Shown here piece by piece: positions 14,971-44,547 of a DNA stretch of 44,700 nucleotides. The stretch's first letter is position 1. The number at the start of each line of letters is the position of its first letter. The notes beneath the pieces were generated by a model. That model worked only from the letters and a program-made list of their open reading frames with translations. It did not search any database and was not told the origin of the DNA. The DNA comes from a virus, in the IMG/VR virus record IMGVR_UViG_3300032156_000023, positions 1-44,700 of that record. One strand, given 5' to 3'. A program made the translations under genes and the position numbers.

Positions 14971-15046
14971 TGGGGAGAGCGACGGGATTTGAACCCGTAA
15001 CTGCTTGGGCCACAACCAAGTGGTCTACCATTGACCTACACTCTCC
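14971..15046 (-). tRNA. tRNA-His (GUG) with encoded G-1 and CCA
   Basis: On the minus strand, acceptor GAGAGUG pairs with CGCUCUC. The D-stem is GGUC/GACC, the anticodon stem is CUUGG/CCAAG with loop UUGUGGC (anticodon GUG), and the T-arm is ACGGG-UUCAAAU-CCCGU. An extra 5' G at 15046 faces C73, the tRNA-His identity element, and CCA is encoded at 14971-14973. All expected features are intact, so it should be functional. Confidence 0.93.
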
Positions 15047-17987: not shown

Positions 17988-18149
17988 GTTTCTTATCTCC
18001 TCCTTTCAAAACAAAAAATATCAACACTTTTTCTATTCGTTAATTAATATATATAGTAGATACGTGAGAACAAATAATAAAGACTACAATGAACAGACAG
18101 ATTAACTAGTCTAATATTCCAGAACAAATAAAAAATTTAGGCGGTGGCC
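17988..18149. promoter_or_regulatory. divergent intergenic region with two candidate plus-strand promoters
   Basis: This gap separates the minus cassette from the plus-strand tail operon and should hold promoters for both. Two copies of the repeated motif lie on the plus strand: GAACAAATAATAAAG (18068-18082) and GAACAAATAAAAAAT (18122-18136), the second 28 nt before the ATG at 18150. The centre is very AT-rich (TTAATTAATATATATAG near 18040-18058). No clear minus-strand copy was found. Confidence 0.45.
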
Positions 18150-18662
18150 ATGAAAATATTAGATTCATATTTGCAGAAGCTCAGTTCAGAACAAGTTACT
18201 ACTTCTGCAGCTGCAGGGATAACACCGTATGAATCTCCTACTACTGGAAAACCTTTAATTAAAAGTCCAAAAGGTAAACCAGTAGTTGTAGAAGCAGATG
18301 TAGAAGGTCCTAAAAGAATAATGGTTGATTTTGACGTTCCTATTCACAGATACTCAAAAGGTTATTTTAACGCACAAATTTATGACTTACCTACAGAAGA
18401 TGCGAAAGAAGCTCTTCAATTCTTAAAGAACGAAGGGTTCGAAATAGTTATTTTTTCTTCAAGAGTTTCATGTTCTGAACACCCTGAAACTTGCAAAGTA
18501 AATGAACAAGCTATAAGAGACTGGTTAGATAAAAATAGTATACCATTTGATATGATTACGTCAGACAAATTACATGCTCTAGTATATATTGATGATAGAG
18601 CAATTAGATTTTCAAGCTGGGGAGATACTATAGAATTTCTTAAGAGTTTGAACTTCTTTTAG
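18150..18662 (+). CDS. HAD-superfamily phosphatase-like protein
   Basis: The start is ATG 18150 rather than the GTG six bases upstream. The 170-residue product has a disordered Ser/Lys/Pro-rich N-terminus of about 53 residues. A compact HAD fold follows: motif I IMVDFD (D60, D62), motif II VIFSSR, and motif IV YIDDRAI. HAD enzymes transfer phosphate through an aspartyl intermediate. Phage relatives include 5'-nucleotidases and the phosphatase half of polynucleotide kinase. Here the usual DxDGT is DFDVPI, so activity is not certain. It heads the tail operon behind a candidate promoter, an unusual place for a metabolic enzyme. Confidence 0.7.
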   Translation: MKILDSYLQKLSSEQVTTSAAAGITPYESPTTGKPLIKSPKGKPVVVEADVEGPKRIMVDFDVPIHRYSKGYFNAQIYDLPTEDAKEALQFLKNEGFEIVIFSSRVSCSEHPETCKVNEQAIRDWLDKNSIPFDMITSDKLHALVYIDDRAIRFSSWGDTIEFLKSLNFF

Positions 18663-18970: not shown

Positions 18971-19684
18971 ATGAGATATTCATTTGCAGAATTAGGCAGC
19001 AACATTCTAACAAGAAAATTCGGTGGTACTACCACTGGTGTGGCAGAACCCTATGTATCAGGTTACTTCTTTGTTTGGTTTGAAACACTTCCTTTAGATT
19101 TACCTTATTATGCAAGTCGAGGTTCAGCAAGGATAGGAAGTAAAGCAGAAATTCAGAACATTTTAGCAGCTACTTGTACTGGTGTTACTCCTCCAGGAGG
19201 TACACTTGGTAAAATTGAATTCACAGGCTTGGGTGGAATTAAGTGGGCAGTTCCAGGAAACGTAGAATATGGTAACGAAGTTACTATAAAATTCATCGAG
19301 TTTAGCAAAACACCTATACTAGATATTCTTCACGGCTGGGTTAAGATGATTAGGGACTACAGAATTGGTATTACTGAGCTTGAATCCAACCCTGAAGGAA
19401 CTGGCTATAACAAAGGTGTTTACTCTGCTGTCATGTATTACTGGACAACTGCTCCAGATGCCAAAACAATAGAATACTATGCATGTTATGATGGTATGTT
19501 TCCTGCAAGAGATCCACAAGAACTCTTTACTGGAGATGTAGAAACTGTAGCAAGGCTAGACATAGAAATTGGATTCAACGTAGACTATACTTGGCATGAA
19601 CCATGGGTCAAATCAAAGTGCGAAGGATATGCTGATCTGTTTATGCAAGCTAAAGAAGTTGTCAAAAATTACAGACAAAGATAA
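18971..19684 (+). CDS. tail tube protein (gp19-like)
   Basis: This 237-residue protein starts behind AAGGAGG. It has the pattern of contractile-tail tube subunits: FTGLGGIKWAVPGNVEYGNEVTIKFIEFSKTPILDILHGWVKMIRDYRIGI in the middle and FTGDVETVARLDIEIGFNVDYTWHEPWV near the C-terminus. Tube subunits stack as hexameric rings inside the sheath. It is larger than T4 gp19 (163 residues) but close to that of other large phages. Its place at the start of the baseplate operon fits. The sheath gene is separated from it by the reversed accessory cassette, which is unusual. Confidence 0.75.
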   Translation: MRYSFAELGSNILTRKFGGTTTGVAEPYVSGYFFVWFETLPLDLPYYASRGSARIGSKAEIQNILAATCTGVTPPGGTLGKIEFTGLGGIKWAVPGNVEYGNEVTIKFIEFSKTPILDILHGWVKMIRDYRIGITELESNPEGTGYNKGVYSAVMYYWTTAPDAKTIEYYACYDGMFPARDPQELFTGDVETVARLDIEIGFNVDYTWHEPWVKSKCEGYADLFMQAKEVVKNYRQR

Positions 19685-19714: not shown

Positions 19715-20545
19715 ATGTTTTCCATAACTAACTCTTTACTTTTCTTACTAAGTGTCAGAAGTACTTTATCTGAGTTCGTAGATACTAGTGAAGACATTAC
19801 TGAACGAGATAAAAGGAAACTCAAAACTTTCTTCATGGAACAAGGTACAGATTATGAAGTTATGCACTTCTTTGTCAGAGGATCTTTTCCCAAGAACAGA
19901 TTTGATTCAGTTGATGAAGTTAAAGTACATGAAGAACTTAAATCTCACATAAGAGAGAATTTTATTCCGCTGAAGAAGTTTGTTGATGAAGAAACAGTTA
20001 AGATAGTTTTGACAGAGCTTGCTCCAATCACTCCGAAAGGACTATCTTCATCTACAGTTATACTTGAGATGATAGCTGCTGGCAACGTTAACTTAACAGA
20101 ACGTTCCAGAGAAGAATGGAATAAGAAAGCTGAAAAAGTATATCAACGAATTAGAAAAGTTCCAGGAAAAGTACTTAGTGCTCTTGAAAAATCTGCTCAA
20201 CAAGGCAAGATCCATAGTATAACTGCTTATATTAGTAAGCATAAAAAAGGACTTACATACATGGCAGCCGGAGTTGTTGTTGCTCTAGCTACTTTAGCTG
20301 CTTATAAAATCTACAAAAATAAACTTACTCCAGCTGCAAAAGCTTGTAAACAATATACTGGGCCAGAGAAAGCTAACTGTATGGCAAAGTATAAACTCGA
20401 TGCACTAAAAGCTCAGCATGATGCTCTCAAAACTGCGCTTTCAGCTTGTAGTAATACAGCTGAACCAGAGAAGTGCAGAACTGTACTAGATAACAAGATC
20501 AAAAAAGTTGAAGGAAGAATCAGTAGACTTTCTAAACAAGTCTAG
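19715..20545 (+). CDS. hydrophobic-segment/Cys-rich tail-operon protein, family member 1
   Basis: This 276-residue protein starts behind AGGAGGA. The N-terminal half is helical. A basic region leads to one hydrophobic segment (GLTYMAAGVVVALATLAAYKIYK, about residues 180-202). A C-terminal helical, Cys-bearing module follows: C-x10-C (AKACKQYTGPEKANCMAKY), then SACSNTAEPEKCRTVLDNKI with C-x8-C. The same C-terminal module occurs in the proteins at 22520 and 23300, so these are paralogues. Function unknown; a virion protein that inserts into or crosses membrane is a reasonable inference from the layout and the baseplate context. Confidence 0.65.
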   Translation: MFSITNSLLFLLSVRSTLSEFVDTSEDITERDKRKLKTFFMEQGTDYEVMHFFVRGSFPKNRFDSVDEVKVHEELKSHIRENFIPLKKFVDEETVKIVLTELAPITPKGLSSSTVILEMIAAGNVNLTERSREEWNKKAEKVYQRIRKVPGKVLSALEKSAQQGKIHSITAYISKHKKGLTYMAAGVVVALATLAAYKIYKNKLTPAAKACKQYTGPEKANCMAKYKLDALKAQHDALKTALSACSNTAEPEKCRTVLDNKIKKVEGRISRLSKQV

Positions 20546-20578
20546 CTACAATCCGAATGAAAGGAGATAAAACAATCT

Positions 20579-21373
20579 ATGGTATTCACAGGATTTAACG
20601 ACATTAAGTATCCAGAATATGAGGTAATAACACCTCAAACTCACCTTTCTTTTACAGTGAGATCACTCAACGTTCAAGAAGAAGAAAACATGAAAGGGAG
20701 TCTAATGACTCCTGTAAAAGTTACTGAACACTTAAATAAGTGTATTTATGATGTATTAGTTAAGAAACCAGATAGTATAACTGACTTCAAAGATTTTCTA
20801 AAACAAATTACTCTAAAAGATAGAGATGCTCTTCTCTATGGTTTATATCATATTACTTACGAAGAGATCAGAAATTATGATGTTAGATGTGGAACATGTA
20901 AAAAAGAATATCCAATTACTATCAAAGCATCTGATATGTTTAGTTACACTTCTTATCCAGGAGATGACGTACTAACAAAAAGAGTTAAAGTGGACTTACC
21001 AGTTTCAAAAAGCATTACTACTTATATCAAGCAACCAACACTACAAGACGAGCTTGATGCTTTAAGAAATTTAGTCACTCTAAAGGGTACTAATTTAGAT
21101 GCAGTTACTCAAACTTTAATTGTAGACAAGTTCGAAGAAGAGGTCGAAGGGAAAACAAAAACGAATGTTTTCTCAGATAGGTACGAAATACTAGAAGCTT
21201 TTAAAACTTTACCAGCTAGAGATAGAAGACTAATTAACAAATCATATATTGAGCATTTTGGGAACTATGGAATTGAACTTAAAATGAAAAGTTTCTGTTC
21301 ATCTTGTGGAGCTGAAGAGATTATAACGGTGGACCTCGTAGAAAACTTTTTTCGTATGGTATACTCAGTTTGA
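20579..21373 (+). CDS. tail/baseplate assembly protein, T4 gp26/gp51-like
   Basis: This 264-residue protein begins MVFTGFNDIKYPEYEVITPQ and contains LNKCIYDVLVKKPDSITDFKDFLKQITLKDRDALLYGLYHITYEEIRNYDV, the pattern I associate with the T4-type baseplate hub assembly family. A zinc-binding pair follows: CGTC at about residue 108 and CSSC near the C-terminus. Such proteins assist assembly of the tail or hub. The frame ends at TGA 21371-21373. However, a long coding frame without a start continues in +1 directly after the TTTTTTC run at 21347-21353, so a 330-residue fusion product may also be made. Confidence 0.7.
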   Translation: MVFTGFNDIKYPEYEVITPQTHLSFTVRSLNVQEEENMKGSLMTPVKVTEHLNKCIYDVLVKKPDSITDFKDFLKQITLKDRDALLYGLYHITYEEIRNYDVRCGTCKKEYPITIKASDMFSYTSYPGDDVLTKRVKVDLPVSKSITTYIKQPTLQDELDALRNLVTLKGTNLDAVTQTLIVDKFEEEVEGKTKTNVFSDRYEILEAFKTLPARDRRLINKSYIEHFGNYGIELKMKSFCSSCGAEEIITVDLVENFFRMVYSV

Positions 21374-21572
21374 TGAAATAGAATCTTACAGAAAAACATT
21401 AGAAGAAAATATTTTCAATTGCATTGAGCTGACAAAACAGGGCTACTTAGAAACTATCATGATGCCAGTTAATAGATTCTACAATTTCTTAAAATGGAAA
21501 GCTGATCTTGAGAAAGAAAAACAAAAAATTATTGAGGAAAATCTGGCTAAGGCAAGAAGAGGAAAGAAATGA
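21342..21572 (+). CDS. +1-frame extension of the gp26/51-like protein (probable programmed frameshift product)
   Basis: This frame is open from 21342 to the TGA at 21570-21572 and has no ATG, GTG or TTG in its first 40 codons and no ribosome-binding site. After the T6C run it reads WYTQFDEIESYRKTLEEN, then MMPVNRFYNFLKWKADLEKEKQK, a helical sequence typical of the second part of phage tail assembly proteins. A +1 slip from TTT to TTC at 21350-21353, before the rare Arg codon CGT, would give a 258+72 residue fusion. An alternative is initiation at ATG-ATG about two-fifths of the way in, which loses the first helix. The stop overlaps the gp25-like start as ATGA. Confidence 0.6.
   Translation, partial: KTFFVWYTQFDEIESYRKTLEENIFNCIELTKQGYLETIMMPVNRFYNFLKWKADLEKEKQKIIEENLAKARRGKK
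21347..21353 (+). other. candidate +1 frameshift site TTTTTTC
   Basis: In the zero frame the codons are AAC TTT TTT CGT. Phe-tRNA can re-pair from TTT to TTC one base on, moving into the open +1 frame. CGT is rarely used among Arg codons in neighbouring genes, where AGA dominates, which could make the ribosome pause. Confidence 0.5.
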
Positions 21573-21994
21573 GGCCAAATAGCTTAGAAAAGTTTCAACA
21601 AACTTCAGTTGGATCCAAAGGGAGAGTAGTAGATTATATAGCTAAAATTACTCCATCTGGTGATTTACAAAAAGCTATTGATCTACAAGCTATCTTAACT
21701 TCATGGAACAATATACTTACAACTCCCTTGAGAACTTCTAGTTTCGACCCAGAGTTTGGTTCAGAACTATATAAGTTAATCTTTGACCCAGCTGATGATA
21801 TTACCCAGCAAAGAATAGATGACGAAGTTAGATATAGGTTAAATTCCTTTGACAATAGAGCATTAATTACTGATGTTCAAATTGAATTTCTTTCGAACAG
21901 AAAGGGATTTAACGTATCAGTTTTTGTTAAGTACAACAAACAACAAGGTCAATTTACATCAGTTATAACTGAATCTCTTTTATCTAACGACTAA
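21569..21994 (+). CDS. baseplate wedge protein (gp25-like)
   Basis: This 141-residue protein has the GPW/gp25 pattern: DLQKAIDLQAILTSWNNILTTPLRTSSFDPEFGSELYKLIFDPADDITQQRIDDEVRYRLNSFD. The conserved PLRTS...PEFGS..Y motif and the F-D-P-A-D turn are diagnostic. In T4, gp25 is part of the inner baseplate and primes sheath assembly. The start codon overlaps the end of the frameshift extension, so it is translationally coupled. Length is close to T4 gp25 (132 residues). Confidence 0.9.
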   Translation: MRPNSLEKFQQTSVGSKGRVVDYIAKITPSGDLQKAIDLQAILTSWNNILTTPLRTSSFDPEFGSELYKLIFDPADDITQQRIDDEVRYRLNSFDNRALITDVQIEFLSNRKGFNVSVFVKYNKQQGQFTSVITESLLSND

Positions 21995-22003
21995 GGCAAC
22001 TTA

Positions 22004-22504
22004 ATGGACAGACGAGTCTATTATTGTATTCTCAAAAAATATAAGGGTTTACTTAAGAAAAAATTTGTGGGTGTAACTCACTTGTTTATCTTGCCAAGAA
22101 CTGATTACGACTATTTATATTTGGCATTACTAGGCGAGAGGTCAGAAGTAACAGGTAGTTATGCTTGTATTTACATCACAAGAATTCCGAACGAAATATT
22201 AGATACTATTGTAACTGGAGAAAAAGAATACTTTGGTAACAGATTTGAAATAATAGAAGAAAAATTAGCAGAAGTTAAGACTCTTGATAAAGGAGCTTAC
22301 TTAATAAAACTTAAGGAAGATAGTGATGTCTTCTTGAAAAAAGAAATACTACTAACTTATCAAGCAGAAGAAAGTACTCCAAAGAAGAGGATATATAACA
22401 TAGTAACAAGGTTAGATTTAGAGACTAGAGAAGTTGGATTTGAAAGTCTGAGCAAATTTGCTCTAAAAAGTTTAATTTTATTACAACCATCAAGATTTAA
22501 GTAA
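22004..22504 (+). CDS. putative baseplate-operon protein, unknown
   Basis: A 166-residue basic protein (MDRRVYYCILKKYKGLLKKKF...) with alternating strands (YDYLYLALLGER, YACIYITRIPNEIL) and no clear motif. It is ten bases downstream of gp25, with only a weak ribosome-binding site, and followed by the first of three closely linked paralogues. A structural or assembly role is inferred from position alone. Confidence 0.6.
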   Translation: MDRRVYYCILKKYKGLLKKKFVGVTHLFILPRTDYDYLYLALLGERSEVTGSYACIYITRIPNEILDTIVTGEKEYFGNRFEIIEEKLAEVKTLDKGAYLIKLKEDSDVFLKKEILLTYQAEESTPKKRIYNIVTRLDLETREVGFESLSKFALKSLILLQPSRFK

Positions 22505-22519
22505 GGGAGGAACAAAAAA

Positions 22520-23131
22520 ATGGACTTCGATAAGAAAATATTTGAACAAGCTTGTAGAGATTACGTTCTAGGAGTAATTAACGAAAGCAAGTACTTAAGA
22601 AAAAGTCTTGTCCTAGTTGAACATGCAAAACTTTATGACTGGACAAAGAACAAAGCTAGTTACAACCAATTAGCAACAATTATCATCTCTGAAAGTGTAA
22701 GTACTAACAAACCAGTTACTGTACGTATGATTAAAGAACTTGAAGATACAGTAAGAGGTCTTGTCATTACACTTGAAGATGAAGAGAAGCCTGTAGCAAA
22801 AAAGTCTGTATTAGCAAAGAAGGTCATTGGAGTTCTAAAACACCCTATAAGAAAAGCTGCTGCAGTTGCAATAAAACACCCGATATATACAACAGCAGGT
22901 GTACTGTTAGGGCTATATCTATTTAGAAAATACATGACCTCTTGCGGAAAAAAGTGTAAGGGTGATCAAGCGTGCATAAAGCAATGTAAAGCAGACGCGA
23001 TAAAGACAACTATACGTAGTTTAGAATCTCAGATGAGCAACTGCAGAAATACTCCAAAACCAGAAAAATGCGAAGCGAAATTAAAGAAAGAAATTGCAAA
23101 ATGGAATCAGAAGTTAACTATGTTAGCTTAA
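22520..23131 (+). CDS. hydrophobic-segment/twin CX3C protein, family member 2
   Basis: This 203-residue protein starts behind GGGAGG. Its N-terminal module (IFEQACRDYVLGVINESKYLRKSLVLVEHAKLYDW) is shared with the proteins at 23158, 23300 and 24478. A basic stretch leads to a hydrophobic segment (IYTTAGVLLGLYLFRKYM, about residues 120-138). The C-terminus has a twin CX3C motif, CGKKC-x5-CIKQC, a helix, then C-x8-C (NCRNTPKPEKCEA). The even cysteine count and helical spacing suggest disulphide-locked helical hairpins, hence exposure outside the cytoplasm or in the virion. Function unknown. Confidence 0.68.
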   Translation: MDFDKKIFEQACRDYVLGVINESKYLRKSLVLVEHAKLYDWTKNKASYNQLATIIISESVSTNKPVTVRMIKELEDTVRGLVITLEDEEKPVAKKSVLAKKVIGVLKHPIRKAAAVAIKHPIYTTAGVLLGLYLFRKYMTSCGKKCKGDQACIKQCKADAIKTTIRSLESQMSNCRNTPKPEKCEAKLKKEIAKWNQKLTMLA

Positions 23132-23157
23132 CAAAAACTTTTGGTAAGCGTATTAAC

Positions 23158-23277
23158 ATGAATAAGATAGCAAAGCAATTATACATTGAATACTTAATCG
23201 AACAAGCAGACAACAATACATTCATCAAAGAGCATGCTACAGTTGGAGAATTCGAAAGGTTCAAAAATATGAGTTAA
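23158..23277 (+). CDS. mini-paralogue: N-terminal module only (39 aa)
   Basis: The product reads MNKIAKQLYIEYLIEQADNN followed by a TFIKEHATVGEFERF segment. It matches the N-terminal module of its neighbours (compare YLLSRIKESNYLRENITVAESERL in the 24478 protein) but lacks the hydrophobic and Cys-rich parts. It is either a working stand-alone module or the remnant of a shortened copy. Another frame starting upstream at 23068 overlaps the previous gene; ATG 23158 is chosen because the shared module begins there. Confidence 0.5.
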   Translation: MNKIAKQLYIEYLIEQADNNTFIKEHATVGEFERFKNMS

Positions 23278-23299
23278 GTGCAACACATGGAGAAAATTA

Positions 23300-23785
23300 A
23301 TGCAGGTCTTTGACAAAAAAATAATAACTGAAGCTTACAAAGATTATCTCATGGAATGTATAGCTAAAAGTAAGTATTTAAGAAAAAATTTAAGCTTCGA
23401 AGAACAACTAGAGTTCTACAACTGGGTTAAGGATAGTCAAAATAAAGTACTAGAGCAAAAGATAGAAAAAGACATAAAGAATATCAGACAACTACAAAGT
23501 ACTAGTAGAAAAGCACTTAGCTACGTTTTAATACCACCACTTGGAAGCTGGATACTTAATTTTCTCTATAGACAAAAAAAAGATCCATGTTTTAAAAAGT
23601 GTGGAGATGATAAAGAATGTCAACGTAAATGTGCTCTCGAAGCAGCTACCAATGTAATTGCTAAACTACGGGTAGCAAAATCCCAGTGTATTAAAACCAG
23701 AAATCCAGGTAAATGTATTGTGAAACTTGATAAGAAAATAAACGATTGGGAACAAAAAAAACTAGCAATAGAACGAAAAAGGTAG
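23300..23785 (+). CDS. hydrophobic-segment/twin CX3C protein, family member 3
   Basis: This 161-residue protein starts behind GGAGAAA. The N-terminal module is IITEAYKDYLMECIAKSKYLRKNLSFEEQLEFYNW. A short hydrophobic stretch (YVLIPPLGSWILNFLYRQ, about residues 77-94) precedes CFKKC-x5-CQRKC, a helix, and C-x8-C (QCIKTRNPGKCIV). The layout is the same as in the 22520 protein but the linker is shorter and the hydrophobic part weaker. It probably arose by tandem duplication within the baseplate operon. Function unknown. Confidence 0.68.
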   Translation: MQVFDKKIITEAYKDYLMECIAKSKYLRKNLSFEEQLEFYNWVKDSQNKVLEQKIEKDIKNIRQLQSTSRKALSYVLIPPLGSWILNFLYRQKKDPCFKKCGDDKECQRKCALEAATNVIAKLRVAKSQCIKTRNPGKCIVKLDKKINDWEQKKLAIERKR

Positions 23786-23793
23786 TCTACTAA

Positions 23794-24441
23794 ATGCAAC
23801 TATACACTAGGTTATATGATTATATTTACGATTATCAACAATTAATTTACGACTATTACAGTAAGACAGCTACTGCTTTTCTTACAACTTACTATCACTT
23901 AGATTTAGACGAAACAATCTGGGACTCTACAAAGCTAACAGGCGGTTACTATGAAAAAATAGGACAGCTATCTGGAGTTAAGTGGCTTAAGATTCTTTTA
24001 CTACCTGTTTTCTTCATAGATAACTTATCTGGTGTTCTAACTGGAGAAGATATTGGCATGGTCGCTGAAAAAGAAACATCTATAGTGATTCCATCATCTT
24101 ACAAATTCAGACCATATCCAAATGATATTATTAAACTTGATCAAAAATATCTTCAACCAGCAGAAAAAGATACATATGCTATCTATGTAGTAGCTGGAAT
24201 AGAAAGATCAACACCCTTAACAAAGACTTTTTATAAATTAACAGTAGTCACTGAACAAAGTAGAACCACAACAGACATAGAACAACAAGTTTCAAAAACT
24301 TACAGCTTTTTTGAGTACACTAAATTTGTTCATACAGTGCCAGACACAATATTTCTGGCAAGGATGATGTTAAAGAACGAAACACTGAGGCTAAGGCTTA
24401 AAGACATGTTTGACGAAAATTCAGGCTTCTATTTCATTTAG
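23794..24441 (+). CDS. putative baseplate structural protein
   Basis: This 215-residue protein begins with a Tyr-rich MQLYTRLYDYIYDYQQLIYDYY, then FLTTYYHLDLDETIWDSTKLTGGYYEKIGQLSGVKWLKILLLPVFFI. Next come IVIPSSYKFRPYPNDIIKLDQKYL and EQSRTTTDIEQQVSKTYSFFEYTKFVH. This pattern belongs to a family of structural proteins I recall from baseplate clusters of large myophages, though I cannot give a T4 gene number. It lies between two members of the Cys-rich family. It has a poorly placed ribosome-binding site (AAAGG 12 bases upstream), which suggests coupling to the gene before. Confidence 0.6.
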   Translation: MQLYTRLYDYIYDYQQLIYDYYSKTATAFLTTYYHLDLDETIWDSTKLTGGYYEKIGQLSGVKWLKILLLPVFFIDNLSGVLTGEDIGMVAEKETSIVIPSSYKFRPYPNDIIKLDQKYLQPAEKDTYAIYVVAGIERSTPLTKTFYKLTVVTEQSRTTTDIEQQVSKTYSFFEYTKFVHTVPDTIFLARMMLKNETLRLRLKDMFDENSGFYFI

Positions 24442-24477
24442 AAATAGACAGTAACAAACTTAAGGGAGGAAACTAAA

Positions 24478-25053
24478 ATGGGAAAGGGATTTATATTCGA
24501 GGATGTAGTACTTACTGAGGAAGACATTACAGACGAGATGATTAGACAAGAATGTGTTGCATACTTACTCAGCAGAATTAAAGAAAGCAATTATCTTAGA
24601 GAGAACATAACTGTCGCTGAAAGCGAAAGGTTAACTAGCTGGATCGAAAAGTTGGATGCAGATACAGCTGTGGCTGTTGTGTTTTCAGATGCCAAGGAAC
24701 CATGGAAGTTCAGCACAAAAGCACCAGAATGGGCTAAATCAAGAAAAGCTCAGCTGAGACAAGCTGCAAAATCAGCATGGCAAAAGACAAAGGGCGCAGC
24801 AGCAGCAGTTAAGGGTGCTCCAGGAGCCGCTGCTGGTAAAGTTGCAAAAACATGGAAAAGTGGTAAAGCAGGCAAGGCAGCTGTAATTGGCGGAGCAGCA
24901 CTAACAGCAGTTGCAGGTGGTTTAGCAGCTAGAGCTATCTACAAAAAGCTTACTGATCAGTGCGTAAAACAATGTAAAGGATCTGCTGATAAAGATTGTG
25001 TTGTTAAATGCAGACAAGCTGCAAAAGCTAAAGTCGCTCAGGCCACTGCTTAA
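24478..25053 (+). CDS. hydrophobic-segment/twin CX3C protein, family member 4
   Basis: This 191-residue protein starts behind GGGAGGA. The N-terminal module is MIRQECVAYLLSRIKESNYLRENITVAESERLTSWI. The middle is Ala/Lys-rich (AKSAWQKTKGAAAAVKGAPGAA) and leads to a hydrophobic Gly/Ala helix (KAAVIGGAALTAVAGGLAARAIYKKL). The C-terminus has CVKQC-x7-CVVKC and then stops, lacking the last C-x8-C part of its paralogues. The Ala/Gly/Lys make-up resembles membrane-active or DNA-associated internal proteins. A hairpin follows its stop. Function unknown. Confidence 0.68.
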   Translation: MGKGFIFEDVVLTEEDITDEMIRQECVAYLLSRIKESNYLRENITVAESERLTSWIEKLDADTAVAVVFSDAKEPWKFSTKAPEWAKSRKAQLRQAAKSAWQKTKGAAAAVKGAPGAAAGKVAKTWKSGKAGKAAVIGGAALTAVAGGLAARAIYKKLTDQCVKQCKGSADKDCVVKCRQAAKAKVAQATA

Positions 25054-25106: not shown

Positions 25107-25139
25107 CTTAATTAGAATAAAAAACAAAGGATGTCAAAC

Positions 25140-27713
25140 ATGGCAGATACGTCGATCTCAACTCAGATTTACGCATCTAGAGATCAAACAAGAAACCAGA
25201 TTATAGAATATTTCCAATCATACTTAGATTTAAAAAATGTTGATCTTTTAAAGTCATCCTTTATGTCGTTCATGATCAACATTCTATCAACTTTAACATC
25301 TAACTTAATGTTCTATAATATTTCTACTTACAGAGAATTCTTTTTAACTACTGCACAACTACCAGAATCAATTTTAAACTTATCAGCTTTCCTTGGCTAT
25401 AATGTGACAAGCGCTAAATATGCAGAAGTCGGAGTTCTTTTCACAGTTCCTTTTGGTTTTGATGTACCACCAGACACTACTACAATTACTATTAATCCTG
25501 GCTTCAAATTTTATGCGGGTACCACAGAATTTATAACAGACTATTTAACTACAATAACTGTTAAAAATAATTCAACCGCGTCTATTATAGTTCAAGATGG
25601 ACAAAAAATATACAATTTACCAGTTATCATAGAAGCATCAAGTTTCAGTTTCTTATTGATAGCAAAACAATATAAAGAAAGCCAACAAGAATTTCAAATC
25701 GACCAAGATCTAGAATCATATCAATTTGTAACAATCGACGTACCATTAACTGGACAAGTTTCTTCTCTTAGTGTAGAAATACAAGACCCTGGAAGTTCAT
25801 CATGGACTGTTTATACTGAGTCTCCTAGTCTATATCTAATGTCTGCAACTGATAAGATGTATGTATCAAGAAGAACCCAAAATGGAAGAAGGTTATATTT
25901 TGGTAACGGAGTAATTGGGGTTCAACCTGGACCAGGATCTACAGTCAGAGTTACAGTAAACGAAACTCTAGCAGAAAGAGGAAATGTAATAGCAGGTTCT
26001 ATTACTAGAGGTGATAGAATTTATACCACTAGTAGCGGGGTTACAAAAATCCTCAACTACACAGTAACTAATCCTAGTCCTGCATCACAGGGCCAAGATG
26101 AAGAATCTCTAGAAGAAACAAGGTCAAATTCAATAGCTAGCCTTACAGCTCTACACAGATTAGTTTCCGAATCAGATTATATAAATGCAAAAGTAGTACT
26201 TGAAAACTCACCTCTAGCTGAAAATTCTCTCCCTATTTTGAAAAGATCAGACTTAAAAGTTAATGATATACAGCTGTTTACAACATTATTGTTTGGCAAC
26301 GAATTAGTACCAACAAGAGATGCAAGTTATACTACATATATGCCAGTTAACGGAGAAGCGTATGTACCAAGAAACACTATAATTGAAGTAGATAGCATAG
26401 ATTATTACAATCTTTTTGATATCACGACTGATAAAATTAACAAGGCAGCTTACTACTACTACATTATGTATCAGTTACAGATAATCCCGATGTTAGTTAG
26501 AAGCTACGGTTCTACTTATGATCTATCAATTACTAACCTTTTAATTAAAAAAGATGGAAGTAATGCATCTTTTGATCTATCTTACTATACTACTGAAACA
26601 GACTCTACTTCTGCCGAGTGTATATTAGTATTTCTACAAGATGGAATAGAACATAATATGGTCAACGACTCAACTAACAAAAAGTTTACTTACTCATTTA
26701 ATCCCTATAATCTAATCCCAGAAGGAGAACTTGACGCATATTTTACAATTTTAAGAGGTAGTTCTAATATAGCTCAGTACTCAGCTAAGTTTACGTTTAG
26801 AACTTCTCTAAACTCTTTTATGTTATCACAAATAATATTAGGAGAAGATTCAACTTCTTATATAGAACTAGATATAGACTCAACTAGCTGTATGATTTTC
26901 GATATACCCGTTATTAAAAAAGATTACTATGATGCTTTAGATGAAGATGGAAAAAGAGCATTTGAATCCCAAATTTTACAAGCAATGATATCTGAAACAG
27001 ACTTTGAATCCAGAAGAATGTTAACTGACTTTACAAACTTAAAACTAGCTAATACAACAGGCTTGATGAAGAATATGCAGCTTAATAAAGTTACTAAACT
27101 GCCTGTTATAGATATGTATATAGAAGCCATACCAACAAATGCTAAGCTTGGAGATAGATATATTATAGAAGGAGATGAGGGTGGAGTTGGTTCAGCTTGG
27201 TATGGCCAACCAAATGGTACGATTGCAGAATGTATTGATGAGATTTTACAAACATGGGGTTTTACAGTACCAATTTTAGATGAGATGATATACGTAGAAC
27301 AAAAAAAGAAGAAGTACATTTTTTCTGAAGGGGAGTGGGCTCTACCTGTATACCAAATCCCTTTAGAGATAGAAATAGAAGTTATTAGAAGTAAAACTTA
27401 CACAAATACTGATATAGAGCTATCTAACGCAATCAAGTCAGCTTTGCTTTCTACTTTTCAAAGTAGGTTTGGTACAAATGTTGTTTTATATAGATCTGAG
27501 ATAATAGATGTAGTTCAAGAAATTAATGGAGTAGGTCATTGCAGAGTAGTCAAACCAGAATCAAGTATTTTCTATGATTTCGACATAGATAAACTAGATG
27601 ATTATATATTATCTTACTTTAAGTCTACAGATAATCCACAAATAAAACTACTACTCTACGGGCCAGACTACACATTTTTTAAAGAAGAGAGTATAACAAT
27701 AATGATTATATAA
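25140..27713 (+). CDS. baseplate wedge protein (gp6-like)
   Basis: The start is ATG 25140, nine bases after AAAGG; an ATG at 25131 touches that site. The protein of about 857 residues has the T4 gp6 / baseplate J layout. The N-terminus is helical (MADTSISTQIYASRDQTRNQIIEYFQSYLDLKNVDLLKSSFMSFMINILSTLTSNLMFYN). Strands with FTVPFGFDVPPDTTTITINPGFKF follow, then a middle with YFGNGVIGVQPGPGSTVRVT and SQGQDEESLEETRSNSIASLTALHRLVSESDY. The last quarter has the terminal fold (IPLEIEIEVIRSKTYTNTDIELSNAIKSALL). gp6 forms the inner ring of the baseplate that triggers contraction. Length exceeds T4 gp6 (660 residues). Confidence 0.85.
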   Translation: MADTSISTQIYASRDQTRNQIIEYFQSYLDLKNVDLLKSSFMSFMINILSTLTSNLMFYNISTYREFFLTTAQLPESILNLSAFLGYNVTSAKYAEVGVLFTVPFGFDVPPDTTTITINPGFKFYAGTTEFITDYLTTITVKNNSTASIIVQDGQKIYNLPVIIEASSFSFLLIAKQYKESQQEFQIDQDLESYQFVTIDVPLTGQVSSLSVEIQDPGSSSWTVYTESPSLYLMSATDKMYVSRRTQNGRRLYFGNGVIGVQPGPGSTVRVTVNETLAERGNVIAGSITRGDRIYTTSSGVTKILNYTVTNPSPASQGQDEESLEETRSNSIASLTALHRLVSESDYINAKVVLENSPLAENSLPILKRSDLKVNDIQLFTTLLFGNELVPTRDASYTTYMPVNGEAYVPRNTIIEVDSIDYYNLFDITTDKINKAAYYYYIMYQLQIIPMLVRSYGSTYDLSITNLLIKKDGSNASFDLSYYTTETDSTSAECILVFLQDGIEHNMVNDSTNKKFTYSFNPYNLIPEGELDAYFTILRGSSNIAQYSAKFTFRTSLNSFMLSQIILGEDSTSYIELDIDSTSCMIFDIPVIKKDYYDALDEDGKRAFESQILQAMISETDFESRRMLTDFTNLKLANTTGLMKNMQLNKVTKLPVIDMYIEAIPTNAKLGDRYIIEGDEGGVGSAWYGQPNGTIAECIDEILQTWGFTVPILDEMIYVEQKKKKYIFSEGEWALPVYQIPLEIEIEVIRSKTYTNTDIELSNAIKSALLSTFQSRFGTNVVLYRSEIIDVVQEINGVGHCRVVKPESSIFYDFDIDKLDDYILSYFKSTDNPQIKLLLYGPDYTFFKEESITIMII

Positions 27714-30201: not shown

Positions 30202-33200
30202 TTAAGTAAGGTTTCCAGAGATGATTGCAGTTAAATCTGAATCTATCTCAGAACTTCTTGAATTCCTCCCTGCTCCAACGTTTTGATTATTTGAAACTAA
30301 AATATTGCTAATAGTACTCGTATTTGAAGCTACATTTTTTGAAACTCCATCTAAACCTGCTCCAAATGTCTTTCCAAGATCTGTATTCGAATCTAAAAAT
30401 GCTCTTGTAAATAGAGACTCTTTAGCTGCCATCATCGAAATAAGATCTTTTTTACTAATTGGTCTTCTTCTAAAAGTGGCGTCTCCAACTTCAGATTGTA
30501 AATGCCATGGTTCACCTGGTACTGGTCTGCTAAAACCATACTTGTCTAAAAGTCCCATACTATCTAATTGGCCTGCATTAAAACTCTGAATATCTATAGC
30601 TGTTCCGAGTTCGTGTTTAGAATGTCCAGGAGCAGCAGCATTTCGATTTGTTGCATAAAGTTGTGCTTGTTCAGCTCTAGTTCTGTAAGCGGAATTTACA
30701 ACAATACCTTCCCCACTTTTCTTTTGATACTCCTCTCCCATAGATAAAAATTTATTATAAACTCCAGGTTTAAGACCCTCTAAGTTAACACCAGACCTCA
30801 CATTAATACCAGGTACACCTTCAGCTCCCTGATCACTCATTCTTTTTCTTAGTTCTTTTAGTTGTTCTGGACTAGCATTTTCAACATTTGTCCAGCCTCT
30901 TTCATTCTTAGTATTAGCTCCTGCCCATGTTTCATCCCAATTTGTTGATCTTCTAACCTCCGATCCAGGAATGCCTCCTGTTTTTGCTGCTTCTCCTTGA
31001 CGTCTTTTATGCTCACGATACATCTCAGCGCCTGTTTTCGGCTCTTCTTCTTTAATTCCAAGTAGTCTTTTGATAAGAGAACCCATACTTGAAAAAAAGT
31101 TTTTGACTGGATCTATAATATAATCTTGAATCATACTAAAAATGTTAAAATGTTCAGCCAACCAATCACCAAGTTTAAATGCATATTTTCCAAGAGCATC
31201 TCCTAACATTTTTCCAAGTACAGTTCCAAGTGGTCCTAAAATTAATCCTCCAATAGTTGATAAACTTCCACTAATTGCTCCTTGAGCAATTCCTTCTGCC
31301 GTTCCTCTTTCTTTTCCAACTTCCATACCTGACATTATTCCAGCAATTGCTCCACCTCCTATACTTAATCCTCTCCCCATACCAAACTTAGTAGCAGCCC
31401 CTCCTTTAAGCCATCCTCCAACTTTGCCAACTTTACCAGCTGCACCTTTTGCAGCCCCTTTCGCACCAGCTACTATCCCAGTTATTCCAAGTGCTTGTCC
31501 TATTGCAGCAAAAATAGGGCCAAATATAGTTGATAATATACTACCAAAGAGGATCACAACTGTCTTTGCTACTTCCCAAATTTGCTTCATTACCCCCTTT
31601 TGCTTCAGTATTGCTTGTTTTCTCTCTTCTAGTTTATCTAAAAATTTCTGTTTCACAGCATCTTTGTTTTCTTTTACTTTCTGTATCTTATCTGCATACC
31701 TTTCTTTGAAGGACGTTTTCTGTTTTTTAGCTTCTTCTACTACTTTATCTTTAGCTTCGCGGGCTTCCTCAGAAGCTATTCCAAAAATTCCTTTTAAGTA
31801 TCCCTCTAACCTCTCTTGATAACCTTCAACTTTTTCTACAGCTCTTAACGCTCCTTCTCTTAATTTAAGTGGAACATATCCCCAAGCTTCTTCTATTCCA
31901 CCCATATCTAACCCTTCTCTCTGAGCCCATTCTTCAAAACGTCCTCTAATCTTCTGTGCAAGGGTCTTTTTCTCCTTCTCTCCTCCAGGTTTGAACCATT
32001 CTTTAATTTTCCCCCACATAGTATAAATACCTTTTTCTTCTGGTGTTTCCATTGGTCCAGCACCAGTAATTTTACGAAGACTCTCTCCCATCTGTAGAAG
32101 ATAACTAATCATAACATCAAGCTTATGCATACCTTTGGTATAGATCAAAGATAATACATCAAATATATTTCTAAAAACATTTCCACTCTTTGGAAGATCA
32201 GCTCTATAACCACCTCTAATTGAAAACAACCATTTAATTGGGCCTGTTGTAGCCTTTTCCATCAGTTTGTAAAATCTATAAATCTTGGCTAAAGTTTCAT
32301 GTTGTTCAAGAAAAGCATCAAGTAAACTAGCTCCTTGTTCCTCTTCTTCAACTAAAGCAGATCTCATTTTATAGATCTCTGAGTGTATCTTAAATAACAA
32401 ATTCTCTCCACCACCTGCTCCTTTAATCAGCTTAGTAAAATAGTTGAATTGTTTCCTTGATTGAGCTATCTGAATCTTTGTTGTCTCTTTAATTACTTCT
32501 GTAATCTGGGAGAAATCAACTGTACAGGATCCACCTCCTCCACCAACAATACCTCCAGCTATTGCTTTAGCTTTGGCTGTGATTCTAGTCTTTGCTCGTT
32601 TTGCTCTTCTAGCTACTCCGCCTCCGCCAGCACCTCCTATAACTGGTTGTCCTTCTTCAAAAAATACTTCTTCTTCATATTTCTCTTTAGATCTCTTGAA
32701 CCTATCTAACAAACCAGCATATAATTGAGCGGACTTACCTTTTATTTTTTCTAAAGCAGTTCTAAACATTTGTGTTTCAAACAATTTTCCTACAAAATAG
32801 CCAAAAACTGGACTAGCTTGAGATAGAGTCATTGCAACAAAATTCTGTTTATTAATTCTAATATCCTCACTAATAGCTCTCCCATAATCTTGAATAGCTT
32901 CTTTAGTAGCACTAGCAGTAGCAGCAGTCATCTGAATTATTCCCTTACTAAGAGCAGCTATAGTTAATCCAAGCTTGTCTAGTATTTTATTAACAGACTT
33001 CGTAACTTCTTTAACTTGACCTACTTCTCCAGTTCTCTTTATTTCTACTGCATTTCTTGCAGTATCAAACCTTAATCTATTAGCTGTACCACCAATCTTT
33101 CTGTTCAAATCATTCATATCTCTTCTATTTCTTGATTGCAAATCATCTAGTCTAGTTCCCATGGAACTAATGTTCTTTAGTTCTTCAGGTCCATACTTCT

Positions 33201-33225
33201 TCGGTGTCCGTTTTCTTGGTGCCAT
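30202..33225 (-). CDS. tape measure protein with M15-type peptidase domain
   Basis: This 1007-residue protein has a basic start (MAPRKRTPKKYG), long helical stretches, Gly-rich linkers (GGAGGGGVARRAKR, GGIVGGGGGS), and hydrophobic Ala/Gly segments near residue 600 (TVVILFGSILSTIFGPIFAAIGQALGITGIVAGAKGAAKG). All are typical of tape measures, which set tail length and enter the host envelope. At about residues 805-912 is a VanY/M15 peptidase: SAYRT (845), SKHELGTAID (869-878) and EPWHLQ. These hold the zinc ligands His, Asp and His of D-Ala-D-Ala carboxypeptidases and endolysins. It would cut peptidoglycan cross-links when the tail penetrates. It is flanked by baseplate and terminase genes. Confidence 0.85.
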   Translation of the reverse strand: MAPRKRTPKKYGPEELKNISSMGTRLDDLQSRNRRDMNDLNRKIGGTANRLRFDTARNAVEIKRTGEVGQVKEVTKSVNKILDKLGLTIAALSKGIIQMTAATASATKEAIQDYGRAISEDIRINKQNFVAMTLSQASPVFGYFVGKLFETQMFRTALEKIKGKSAQLYAGLLDRFKRSKEKYEEEVFFEEGQPVIGGAGGGGVARRAKRAKTRITAKAKAIAGGIVGGGGGSCTVDFSQITEVIKETTKIQIAQSRKQFNYFTKLIKGAGGGENLLFKIHSEIYKMRSALVEEEEQGASLLDAFLEQHETLAKIYRFYKLMEKATTGPIKWLFSIRGGYRADLPKSGNVFRNIFDVLSLIYTKGMHKLDVMISYLLQMGESLRKITGAGPMETPEEKGIYTMWGKIKEWFKPGGEKEKKTLAQKIRGRFEEWAQREGLDMGGIEEAWGYVPLKLREGALRAVEKVEGYQERLEGYLKGIFGIASEEAREAKDKVVEEAKKQKTSFKERYADKIQKVKENKDAVKQKFLDKLEERKQAILKQKGVMKQIWEVAKTVVILFGSILSTIFGPIFAAIGQALGITGIVAGAKGAAKGAAGKVGKVGGWLKGGAATKFGMGRGLSIGGGAIAGIMSGMEVGKERGTAEGIAQGAISGSLSTIGGLILGPLGTVLGKMLGDALGKYAFKLGDWLAEHFNIFSMIQDYIIDPVKNFFSSMGSLIKRLLGIKEEEPKTGAEMYREHKRRQGEAAKTGGIPGSEVRRSTNWDETWAGANTKNERGWTNVENASPEQLKELRKRMSDQGAEGVPGINVRSGVNLEGLKPGVYNKFLSMGEEYQKKSGEGIVVNSAYRTRAEQAQLYATNRNAAAPGHSKHELGTAIDIQSFNAGQLDSMGLLDKYGFSRPVPGEPWHLQSEVGDATFRRRPISKKDLISMMAAKESLFTRAFLDSNTDLGKTFGAGLDGVSKNVASNTSTISNILVSNNQNVGAGRNSRSSEIDSDLTAIISGNLT

Positions 33226-41766: not shown

Positions 41767-42690
41767 CTACAAGTAGTATGTACCATCAAAACCACCCTGC
41801 AAACCTTTCCAGCAAATGGCTATAGCATCACTAGTGTGTATACTTTCTTCGTGTGTACACTTTACTAACCAGTCGAAAATATTCTCATCTTCATTTAAAC
41901 CGTTCATGATTTTTCTGATAGCATCTTCTACAAACATCGGATTATCTGCAGCTATCTTTGCTATTTCCTGTTCATCTAATCTTTGTATTATAGGATAAGG
42001 TAAAGTTTTAATATTCTTCTCTATTATATCAATGATATCCTCCAGCCAAACTATCTGTGGAGGAATAACTTCAACGAGAACTTCGGCAAAACATCTTTGA
42101 GCATGTGGAAATCCTTTACCTGCATTTTCACATAAACTTGCAGAACAAGGACAGTATGAAGCATACTGAACTTTCACTTTTTCAAAGAATTTAAAAACTT
42201 CTCCTATTAATTTACCTTCAAAAGAACATTCATAGAATTGCGGAAAAACGTGTGTCGTTTTTGGACTTTTCTTGTAAATTGGAAGTTCAAACTCAAACTT
42301 CAAATTACTCTCTGTAGAATCAGCTTCAACAGCAGTTTTAAATTCTTTCAGTATATCTCTAACTAAAGGATGTTTCAGAGGTTTATCTAGATAGTTTTTT
42401 AGAGTTCTCAACAACATTGACATACTAATCCCTTTCATATCTGCTCGAAGATCAGTAGTCATTGTAAGTTCAGCTACTAATTGTCTAAAACCACCATACC
42501 TTGATTCTAATGTAAAAGGAGCCTTTACTTTCTGAACTCCCACTTGATTAATTCTTAGAGGGAATTCAACCTTTCCTTCATGCTGCATATCCGGCAATTT
42601 TCTTTCCAAAGTTCGACCTCCACTCAAAGTTATAGTTTTGTTCTGACTATTCCAGTTAGTTTCTGGTTTGATCGTAGAGACTACTTTCAT
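41767..42690 (-). CDS. folE2: GTP cyclohydrolase IB (FolE2)
   Basis: The product of about 307 residues has the FolE2 pattern: EGKVEFPLRINQVGVQKVKAPF, ELTMTTDLRADMKGISMSMLLRTL, and the metal/catalytic region VQYASYCPCSASLCENAGKGFPHAQR, with the cysteine and histidine of GCYH-IB. This enzyme opens GTP to dihydroneopterin triphosphate, the first step to folate, queuosine and other 7-deazaguanines. In phages it usually feeds preQ0-type DNA base modification. The start is uncertain: ATG 42690 is preferred, and 42711 would add seven residues; both overlap the zinc-ribbon gene. QueD, QueE and QueC are not in the window. Confidence 0.88.
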   Translation of the reverse strand: MKVVSTIKPETNWNSQNKTITLSGGRTLERKLPDMQHEGKVEFPLRINQVGVQKVKAPFTLESRYGGFRQLVAELTMTTDLRADMKGISMSMLLRTLKNYLDKPLKHPLVRDILKEFKTAVEADSTESNLKFEFELPIYKKSPKTTHVFPQFYECSFEGKLIGEVFKFFEKVKVQYASYCPCSASLCENAGKGFPHAQRCFAEVLVEVIPPQIVWLEDIIDIIEKNIKTLPYPIIQRLDEQEIAKIAADNPMFVEDAIRKIMNGLNEDENIFDWLVKCTHEESIHTSDAIAICWKGLQGGFDGTYYL

Positions 42691-42922
42691 TAAAATCAGA
42701 TTCAACATCATCCATCCATATTATAAGCTCTTTACTATCTCCAATATCATGTTCTTTATCGTTTGAACAGTAAAAAATAATTTCTGGTCTGTCTGATATG
42801 TTATTATCAGATCTTTCAATTTTCCCATCTTCTGTAATAGAAAACCATCTCTCTGGAGTTACATAGCTAAAATCAATAGGTTCATTACACTCTTTACAGA
42901 ACATCTGTTTATGTTTAACCAT
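42656..42922 (-). CDS. small zinc-ribbon-like protein (88 aa)
   Basis: The start is ATG 42922, behind AGAGGTGG. The product starts MVKHKQMFCKECNEPIDFSY, with one CxxC pair and one more Cys (FYCSND) with a His nearby, a probable zinc site, and an acidic C-terminus. It overlaps FolE2 by 35 bases in another frame. It follows the large hairpin at 42939-43017. Function unknown. Confidence 0.55.
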   Translation of the reverse strand: MVKHKQMFCKECNEPIDFSYVTPERWFSITEDGKIERSDNNISDRPEIIFYCSNDKEHDIGDSKELIIWMDDVESDFNESSLYDQTRN

Positions 42923-43022: not shown

Positions 43023-44282
43023 CTACTTTTGTTCAGTCCGATCTTTAACTCTAGTTTTAATCGACATATCTAGATTAAGATCTTTTGCTGTTTTAGCAGT
43101 CAATAAATCAATCATAGCTTGAGCACCACTTCCTGCTTGAGATGAACCACCAAAAACAGTTTGAGGAACCCAACTACCTTGATATTTCGCAATATTTTCC
43201 CATCTGATTTGCTCTACTCTTATATAAGCATCTAACTTAGCTTGAAGAGCATTATCAGCTTCCATTACTAATCTGCGTCGTGCAGCTTCACCTTCACCTA
43301 AAAGAGTTTGCTGTTTCTTAGTCAATTCTGCAGCTTGAGCATCTAGTTCAGCAACCCTTTTTCTTTGTTCAGCTTCAGTCACTGCTTGGGCCTTAATAAC
43401 TTCTTGTTTCCATTTAGCCCCTGCTGCATCAGCTTCACCTCTCTTAGCTACGGTAATAGCATCCTGTTCAGCTTCTTTAGCACGAGCAACTGCAATTTGA
43501 ACCTGCATCAACGCTTTTTGCTGTTGCTGAATCTGAGCCTCAACACCTTTGTCATACTGAACTTCATTAATACTAAGGTTAAAAGTTTTGATCCCAAAAT
43601 CAGTCAGCGGAGAAGCTTCAACACGCTGGGGAACACCAGATTTATCCATAACAATTTTAGCAACTTTAAAAGTCTTCATTATTCCAGTAATTGGATCTGG
43701 TTTCTTTTCTTCTACCGTCTCAGTTTTATAAACACCTCGCTGAATCTGATCCTCAATAAGATTTAGTAACTCATTACGTCTTTCAGATGCAGACTCTGTT
43801 GAACTCATGGTTGGGCCTGTCATATAAACTGACTTCTCAATAACTGTCCTAACTAATTGTTGTTTAATAGCATCTTGAGAACCATACTTAACATGAAGAG
43901 CTGTAAGGTTCTTTTCATCAGTTGGTATTTCCCAAGCAACTGATCCAGAAATCGAAGCATGACTATTATCATTAAATCGAATCTTTATGGACTCATCAGC
44001 TTTAACCCCTTGATCTTTTCTAAGAGAAAACCAAAACTGATCTCGTTTAGTATACTTGGTAACTTTTCCAAACCCTTGCCATTTCACTCCCTGAGAAATA
44101 TGCCAAGCTAAGTTCCCCTTAATAGGAGATTGAATAACCATAATTTGACTAGCATCTAAATTTTCTAAAACTTGGAAACTTAAGATAAACAAAATAAATC
44201 CTACAACAATTCCAATTCCAAGAGCTAATACCTTTCTTGGCGGTCTGAAACTCATATCTTTCTTCTCATCGTCATACTTCAT
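43023..44282 (-). CDS. SPFH/prohibitin-family membrane protein
   Basis: The start is ATG 44282, behind AAGGAG; upstream in-frame codons belong to the overlapping gene. The 419-residue product has one N-terminal membrane segment (VLALGIGIVVGFILFILSF, about 18-38). A SPFH domain follows (ASISGSVAWEIPTDEKNLTALHVKYGSQDAIKQQLVRTVIEKSVY). After it is a long Ala/Glu/Lys/Gln coiled coil (VEAQIQQQQKALMQVQIAVARAKEAEQDAITVAKRGEADAAGAKW), typical of HflK/HflC, prohibitin and flotillin. SPFH proteins build ring or dome assemblies on membranes and often regulate proteases. The role in a phage is unknown; membrane remodelling or protease control is possible. Confidence 0.85.
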   Translation of the reverse strand: MKYDDEKKDMSFRPPRKVLALGIGIVVGFILFILSFQVLENLDASQIMVIQSPIKGNLAWHISQGVKWQGFGKVTKYTKRDQFWFSLRKDQGVKADESIKIRFNDNSHASISGSVAWEIPTDEKNLTALHVKYGSQDAIKQQLVRTVIEKSVYMTGPTMSSTESASERRNELLNLIEDQIQRGVYKTETVEEKKPDPITGIMKTFKVAKIVMDKSGVPQRVEASPLTDFGIKTFNLSINEVQYDKGVEAQIQQQQKALMQVQIAVARAKEAEQDAITVAKRGEADAAGAKWKQEVIKAQAVTEAEQRKRVAELDAQAAELTKKQQTLLGEGEAARRRLVMEADNALQAKLDAYIRVEQIRWENIAKYQGSWVPQTVFGGSSQAGSGAQAMIDLLTAKTAKDLNLDMSIKTRVKDRTEQK

Positions 44283-44547
44283 TACTTTTCTCCTTTTCTT
44301 TATTTTGAGGTTTAATAGTTTTACGAATCTTTTCAGCTTTTGCTTTTTCTTCAGCCAACATCGACTCAAGTTTCGCTTTTTCCACTTCTTCTTTAGCTTC
44401 TTCCAAGTCCTCTTCCAATTTTTCTGTTGATTTTCTAAAAGCAGGAAAGTATGGTAGACCTCTAGCTAAAGGAACCAGAATTTGAGTGATAACAAAAAGT
44501 AGAAACAAAGCTCCAAATATTACTTGCAACCATTCAAGAAATACCAC
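44272..44547 (-). CDS. small membrane protein with coiled-coil tail (91 aa)
   Basis: The start is GTG 44547, nine bases after AAGGAGG. The product has one membrane helix (VIFGALFLLFVITQILVPLA, about 9-28) followed by a Glu/Lys-rich coiled coil (STEKLEEDLEEAKEEVEKAKLE) to the end. It overlaps the SPFH gene by 11 bases, so both are coupled. The similar layout, helix plus coiled coil, suggests it partners with the SPFH protein at the membrane, which is inference. Confidence 0.7.
   Translation of the reverse strand: MVFLEWLQVIFGALFLLFVITQILVPLARGLPYFPAFRKSTEKLEEDLEEAKEEVEKAKLESMLAEEKAKAEKIRKTIKPQNKEKEKSNEV

Follow-up and report, generated by a model that had tools for sequence, protein, structure and literature searches.

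Paired-cysteine helical hairpins in a family of putative membrane-active proteins encoded by uncultured contractile-tailed phages

Introduction

Several described systems each resemble in part the proteins that are the subject of this study. The ejection proteins of short-tailed phages, gp14, gp15 and gp16 in T7, are helical and poorly conserved, have predicted transmembrane segments and act at host membranes (PMC8954989). For phage T4, the list of hub assembly chaperones includes gp26 and gp51, gp26 possibly being present in the hub as well (PMC3004832), and the internal proteins with a capsid targeting sequence are diverse accessory proteins that have a short N-terminal address in common (PMC3012670). 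The contractile tail of the Agrobacterium phage Milano is locked by disulphides, with sheath and baseplate subunits cross-linked, and this lock must be undone for the tail to fire (PMC10811340). Here we analyze a family of proteins from the baseplate operon of an uncultured phage, present as a 44.7-kb fragment in IMG/VR (record IMGVR_UViG_3300032156_000023, positions 1 to 44,700; hereafter the window). Besides the baseplate genes, the window contains a tail sheath (11618) and a terminase gene (34132, minus strand). The proteins are named by their start positions as A (19715), B (22520), C (23158), D (23300) and E (24478).

A, B, D and E have a C-terminal unit in common, in which a hydrophobic segment is followed by cysteine-bearing helices, and many related baseplate clusters carry such genes. 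We put it at somewhat less than even odds, with a probability of roughly 0.45, that the proteins are associated with the virions of a clade of large contractile-tailed phages and act on membranes, an N-terminal module docking them on the particle and the stapled hairpin making contact with the host membrane during infection.

Results

Cysteine unit and predicted fold

In its fullest form the unit has the spacing C1x3C2-xN-C3x3C4-x18-C5-x8-C6, with N ranging from 5 to 26, as found in the type 2 proteins B and D. Type 1, represented by A, has the spacing Cx10Cx22Cx8C, which upon alignment equals type 2 minus C1 and C4; A is devoid of a twin CX3C motif, and in the alignment its C-x10-C falls on the inner pair C2/C3. 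The C-terminal units of both types are clearly homologous (hhalign 98.9%, E=4e-17). Across 109 distinct domains the columns of C2, C3, C5 and C6 show an occupancy of 96-99%, beyond what is expected by chance, and those of C1 and C4 one of 34-35%. The latter two are both present in 33 domains and both absent in 68, with zero exceptions, a count that is inflated by the relatedness of the sequences; a tree built without the C1/C4 columns has 5 joint changes, 2 of them on well-supported branches. In E, the loss of C5 and C6 coincides with the loss of the last helix. Cysteine loss in pairs is predicted by a disulphide or other pairwise partnership.

In the confident AlphaFold (AF2) models of A (predicted local distance difference test, pLDDT, 85.4; predicted template modelling score, pTM, 0.80) and B (82.7 and 0.75) the hydrophobic helix continues into an antiparallel hairpin that is followed by a third helix, so that the two predicted folds agree. 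The residues C142/C156 and C146/C152 of B are symmetric around residue 149, in a turn predicted for 147-149, and C175/C184 are symmetric around 179.5, in a turn at 178-180. From covariation and helix register we infer the pairing C1-C4, C2-C3 and C5-C6 within a helical hairpin. A zinc or other metal site is disfavoured, as type 1 retains isolated pairs, that is, two separate staples, unlike a four-thiol site. Note that the cysteine unit of A is rich in lysine (K+R 15 vs D+E 7), and that a search with the spacing pattern over some 7000 open reading frames (ORFs) yielded only antisense or zinc-finger noise outside the family.

Members in the window

All genes of the operon described here lie on the plus strand. 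A (19715..20545, 276 residues) has a long helical N-region, and its gene is preceded by a strong AGGAGG. Its hydrophobic segment (residues 179-197, 20249..20305; predicted helix 182-210) leads into the cysteine unit C211-x10-C222-x22-C245-x8-C254 (20345..20539; predicted helices 216-247 and 251-275). B (22520..23131, 203 residues) starts with an N-terminal module that is recognized by profile and has a presumed docking role (22520..22696), continues with a segment that is hydrophobic by hydropathy (residues 114-137, 22859..22930; predicted helix 122-146) and ends in the unit C142x3C146-x5-C152x3C156-x18-C175-x8-C184 (22943..23125), supported by spacing, model and alignment. In D (23300..23785, 161 residues), assigned by motifs and spacing, the hydrophobic segment has a central Pro-Pro (residues 72-90, 23513..23569), and the unit C97x3C101-x5-C107x3C111-x18-C130-x8-C139 is aligned together with the helix after it (23588..23782). 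E (24478..25053, 191 residues) is a short type 2 member that retains the hydrophobic segment (residues 136-154, 24883..24939) and the twin CX3C, C162x3C166-x7-C174x3C178 (24961..25011).

The sequence-only reading had placed these four proteins in one paralogous family with a hydrophobic segment and paired cysteines on helical hairpins, and this was borne out; neither unrelated folds nor an absence from related baseplate clusters, which would have counted against that reading, was observed. The N-terminal motif is fitted by B (DYVLGVINESKYLRKS), D (DYLMECIAKSKYLRKN) and E (AYLLSRIKESNYLREN); each protein has a single hydrophobic segment, with a best 19-residue hydropathy of 1.25-1.62 in B, D and E and 1.68 in A; the twin CX3C spacer is x5 in B and D and x7 in E; and C-x8-C is found in A, B and D. 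The full series of a hydrophobic segment and spaced C2, C3, C5 and C6 is complete in A, B and D, and E, despite its missing C5 and C6, scores E=1.6e-5 in the family profile search. With respect to the proposed tandem duplication, recent tandem pairs are clear in several phages (L001, L005 and L082). B, D and E, in turn, are only 26-36% identical in pairs and not resolved as sister copies on the tree, and the duplication that gave rise to them is therefore old.

Hydrophobic segment and N-terminal module

Ahead of the first cysteine, 102 of 112 domains have a 17-residue stretch with a hydropathy of at least 1.0, and an uncharged run of at least 17 residues occurs in 78 of the 112, compared to 13% of control windows. 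The type 2 segment is often about 26-30 residues long and has a Pro-Pro or PxPxP at its centre, so that it resembles a dipping hairpin more than a plain membrane crossing. In the 100 cases where the charge on the two sides of the segment is unequal, it is higher on the Cys side in 87 (87 vs 13). Fused proteins with two units also exist, with lengths of 347-397 residues.

The N-module is carried by 82 of 106 genes with a Cys unit, and its type 1 and type 2 versions resemble each other distantly (hhalign 65%, E=6e-5). Stand-alone N-module genes are present in related phages (L019:6296, L020:9723, L003:9473 and L009:6612), and as the module recurs alone or with different tails it is most likely a docking part. 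Protein C (23158..23277, 39 residues) had been read as such a module on its own. It is indeed the best match to the N-module profile outside the family proteins of the window, yet a borderline one (E=0.025 over 7053 ORFs), and an alternative in-frame start at 23068 would give 69 residues; it may be a stand-alone module or a remnant.

Among members that have no N-module, a short N-terminal virion-targeting motif is found in 5 of 24, against a background of 60 of 1438 (p=0.003); the loose pattern was picked after examples had been seen, making this a lead only. The T4 internal proteins are a parallel insofar as some family members share a short N-terminal motif with their neighbours; they differ in that there is no sequence kinship and that most family members use a helical N-module of about 60 residues. 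Upstream of the tube-like gene lies a HAD-like gene (18144-18662) that recurs in about 43 related loci and whose product has a conserved extension at the N-terminus (M.LEKYLE.IQ.DES-like). The extension resembles a short targeting peptide, and a loose motif fits 28 of the 43. Similar starts are found in two small members, L003:9063 and L004:9616, and in L102:6278, a gene in scaffold position. In the 201-kb contig G008, at least five proteins (L122:15493, L124:14433, L124:16609, L127:14327 and L127:15117) share the N-terminus M.Y[IV]S[EQ].YI, which resembles the T4 capsid targeting sequence; they include a Cys-hairpin member, a protein with two transmembrane segments and two multi-pass proteins, by eye proteases of the CPBP type.

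Relatives and sequence divergence

The family comprises approximately 103 distinct proteins from related uncultured large phages, 83 of which were found in the first profile searches and the outlying copies later. The route to these relatives led through the gp6-like neighbour to L001, through the gp26-like neighbour to 71 loci and through A-type genes to 11 loci, with some contigs shared. A direct IMG/VR scan with the single protein B gave no match, nor did tblastn searches of 50,697 phage records with A, B and a stand-alone N-module. Profile searches in Pfam and PHROGs returned no convincing match, Foldseek against PDB and BFVD gave best E values of 0.18-1.2 that reflect whole-helix noise, and hmmsearch against PDB chains found nothing under 0.1. 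These roughly one hundred proteins thus matched no described family in the searches made, and the family was previously unnamed.

The closest relative is the 185.6-kb contig L001, whose corresponding operon holds three A-type genes in tandem, one of B/D type and one at the position of E. The number of copies per phage reaches about nine (L082). Between the window and L001 the family proteins are 27-42% identical and the other operon genes 48-80%, among them the gp26-like (80%), tube-like (75%), wedge-like (68%), gp6-like (66%) and gp25 (61%) proteins. Faster evolution than that of the neighbours is as expected for a host-facing part.

Operon slots and copies elsewhere

Within baseplate operons the members are confined to three slots. 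The first, holding A, lies between a tube-like virion protein (18971..19684; labelled from phrog_21400 virion structural protein, E=6e-11, and synteny) and the gp26-like baseplate hub protein (20579..21373; phrog_150, PF12322 T4_baseplate). The second, with B and D, extends from the baseplate wedge gene gp25 (21569..21994; PF04965 above cut-off), or from the gene at 22004, to a wedge-like gene (23794..24441). The latter was assigned by its conserved position and an AR9 relative, yielded no family match in profile searches of Pfam and PHROGs, and bears gp53 as a working label only. The third slot, occupied by E, lies between this gene and the gp6-like baseplate wedge (25131..27713; phrog_219, E=4e-27). 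In 32 related contigs the three slots are free of the family and mostly measure 12-150 bp, and the members are thus accessory genes that have fixed landing places. ORFs resembling homing endonucleases occupy the Cys-hairpin gaps in other phages (L016:7999, L057:6053, L060:12331, L063:5382 and L069:4474). A tRNA-His gene elsewhere in the window (14971-15045, minus strand) overlaps the start of an ORF.

Some of the phages with empty slots have copies elsewhere (L097, L106 and L107). In L099 and L102, copies lie between the genes for the portal (phrog_213) and the head maturation protease (phrog_207); a copy in L137 has the same position as judged from the protease alone. Within the portal gene of L099 (5725-8724, minus strand), part of the reading frame matches HNH endonucleases and may be an intein. 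In L096 a copy adjoins a hub or tail-lysozyme-like gene and in L107 a holin-like gene (PHROG holin), and genes for a putative lipoprotein and amidase-like proteins, labelled by eye, are near copies in L096, L101, L107 and L109. Mapped copies are thus mostly among late structural or lysis genes. The description as a baseplate-operon family therefore holds for many related clusters and is too narrow for the head operon and the hub and lysis vicinity, and many relatives have no member in the slots.

Comparison with AR9 and indications of the host

The cultured Bacillus jumbo phage AR9 (250/251 kb read) has recognizable relatives of the sheath, tube-like, gp25, gp26-like and wedge proteins, and a search with all profiles revealed no family member. 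The window encodes a FolE2-type GTP cyclohydrolase and an SPFH/Band 7 membrane protein (41767-42711 and 43023-44369, respectively, minus strand), and an SPFH protein is found in AR9 as well. Among 84,980 cellular species genomes there were only three matches, all on contigs within archaeal metagenome-assembled genomes. Contigs of this phage group (L093, L094, L095 and L137) occur within such genomes of Lokiarchaeota, Thermoplasmatales and Woesearchaeota. In phylum-wide searches of two of those archaeal phyla, one genome of 371 and two of 227 contained the Cys unit, a rarity as expected of mis-binned phage contigs, which is the likelier origin of the matches. The window encodes a long tail protein of 1007 residues, possibly the tape measure (30202-33225, minus strand), with a VanY/M15 peptidase domain at its C-terminus that points to a peptidoglycan-bearing host. 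An archaeal host is disfavoured by this domain and by the rarity of the Cys unit in archaeal genomes.

Discussion

If the proteins are virion-associated and membrane-active, they would be made late and built into the baseplate or tail, in some phages also into the head. Each would consist of the docking N-module, a variable linker, a hydrophobic helix or proline-broken hydrophobic hairpin that enters the membrane, and a basic unit, a helical hairpin in which up to three cysteine pairs act as staples. The cysteines would oxidise after the particle has left the reducing cytoplasm, and at infection the hydrophobic part would insert into the host envelope, where it could anchor the tail tip or help form the DNA passage, much like the ejection proteins of short-tailed phages. 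The architecture, the logic of cysteine pairing, the operon slots and the spread to head and hub or lysis operons are seen in the data, and docking, presence in the virion, oxidation and membrane entry are steps that we infer. The ejection proteins share with the family the helical character, the poor conservation and the hydrophobic membrane segment. They differ in being carried inside the podophage head and in having no sequence or fold match to the family (PHROGs, Pfam, PDB and BFVD); a cysteine-hairpin unit is not described for them, and disulphides go unmentioned in the review (PMC8954989). In a more far-reaching version, which is tentative at best, a general-purpose stapled membrane-insertion unit, fused to different docking modules, would arm the tail base, the hub and the portal side of the head, and the contractile phage would deliver a set of them, in some phages eight or more, that builds or holds a DNA passage in the host envelope.

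The main rival is that the proteins are membrane-linked morphogenesis factors, whose N-module binds a baseplate or prohead starter complex and whose hydrophobic segment anchors it at the cytoplasmic membrane, the Cys unit lying in the periplasm, and which are absent from the finished virion. Such a one-pass topology would account for the disulphides. In T4, prohead core genes sit in the portal-protease interval, where copies of the family are also found. Likewise, the family genes adjoin the gp26-like gene, and T4 gp26 and gp51 are listed among the chaperones of hub assembly (PMC3004832). The parallel to the T4 hub-assembly proteins gp26, gp28 and gp51 goes as far as the position of slot 1 next to the gp26 homologue; the family itself has a variable copy number and no homology to the gp26-like neighbour or to baseplate-hub profiles, and only that neighbour (20579-21373), not the family members, matches PF12322/phrog_150. 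The charge bias speaks against a plain tether with a periplasmic Cys unit: by the positive-inside rule, positive charge on the Cys side predicts a cytoplasmic unit, with the cysteines kept inside and hence reduced, if the protein is inserted from the cytoplasm. In the fused double units, a poor fit to one full crossing per unit, the second unit would be flipped, and many phages with the same operon are without the genes. Charge bias and fused doubles, neither of them a proof, are more easily explained by a protein that arrives from outside, and we regard membrane-linked assembly as unlikely.

Less probable still is a soluble or structural role within the virion, with the cysteine unit as a clamp stable to shear or heat or as a metal site. 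The hydrophobic helix would then pack inside the particle, in the hub lumen or a coiled coil, and not in a membrane. The lysine-rich unit and the members with no clear hydrophobic segment are in line with this, and phage Milano provides a disulphide-locked contractile tail (PMC10811340). Milano shows that cysteine pairing is possible in a contractile phage particle, but its cross-links connect sheath and baseplate subunits, whereas the pairing proposed here is within small accessory proteins. The two separate staples of type 1 are unlike a four-thiol metal site, and the segment with a hydropathy of at least 1.0 in 102 of 112 domains also counts against this reading. A late role in modifying the envelope, for lysis or superinfection exclusion, by proteins whose genes lie among structural ones is improbable in spite of the holin, lipoprotein and amidase-like neighbours, since the majority of copies lie between baseplate genes, about nine copies in one phage exceed the need of a lysis cassette, and L107 already has a holin. 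A lysis PHROG is absent among the 25 families listed for 41 type-1 members.

The likeness to twin CX3C and CHCH proteins that had been suggested stands as an analogy of spacing and not as kinship. As in the small Tim proteins (PF02953), B has CX3C-xN-CX3C on antiparallel helices by spacing and model, and type 1 members have the inner pair only. The small Tims are eukaryotic import chaperones, and the family differs in its xN of 5-26, the extra C5-C6 staple and the hydrophobic helix; the window members have no match to PF02953 above cut-off, and 1 of 17 members tested scores weakly (E=0.0085). The two CX9C motifs of CHCH/twin CX9C proteins do not occur with the family spacings of x3, x5-26, x3, x18 and x8.

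Several observations weigh against a role of virion-associated, membrane-active proteins. No clear hydrophobic segment is present in L001:8680, L003:9063 and L004:9616, and the copies in L097, L103 and L105 are without a clear structural neighbour. The fast evolution of the family may be mere relaxed constraint. The 32 contigs with empty slots, together with AR9 and its lack of a detectable member, indicate that the machine as such can do without the family. The members are known from genes of uncultured phages alone, and a cytoplasmic product would face oxidising conditions only after lysis.

For annotators, the family gives a name to about one hundred proteins, and it provides a further phage example of helical hairpins with paired cysteines. 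The passage of DNA across the inner membrane after puncture by a contractile tube is poorly understood. Proteins that unite a putative docking module with a membrane segment and a redox-sensitive staple, that occur in several copies and that are missing from otherwise similar phages would make this step of DNA entry testable.

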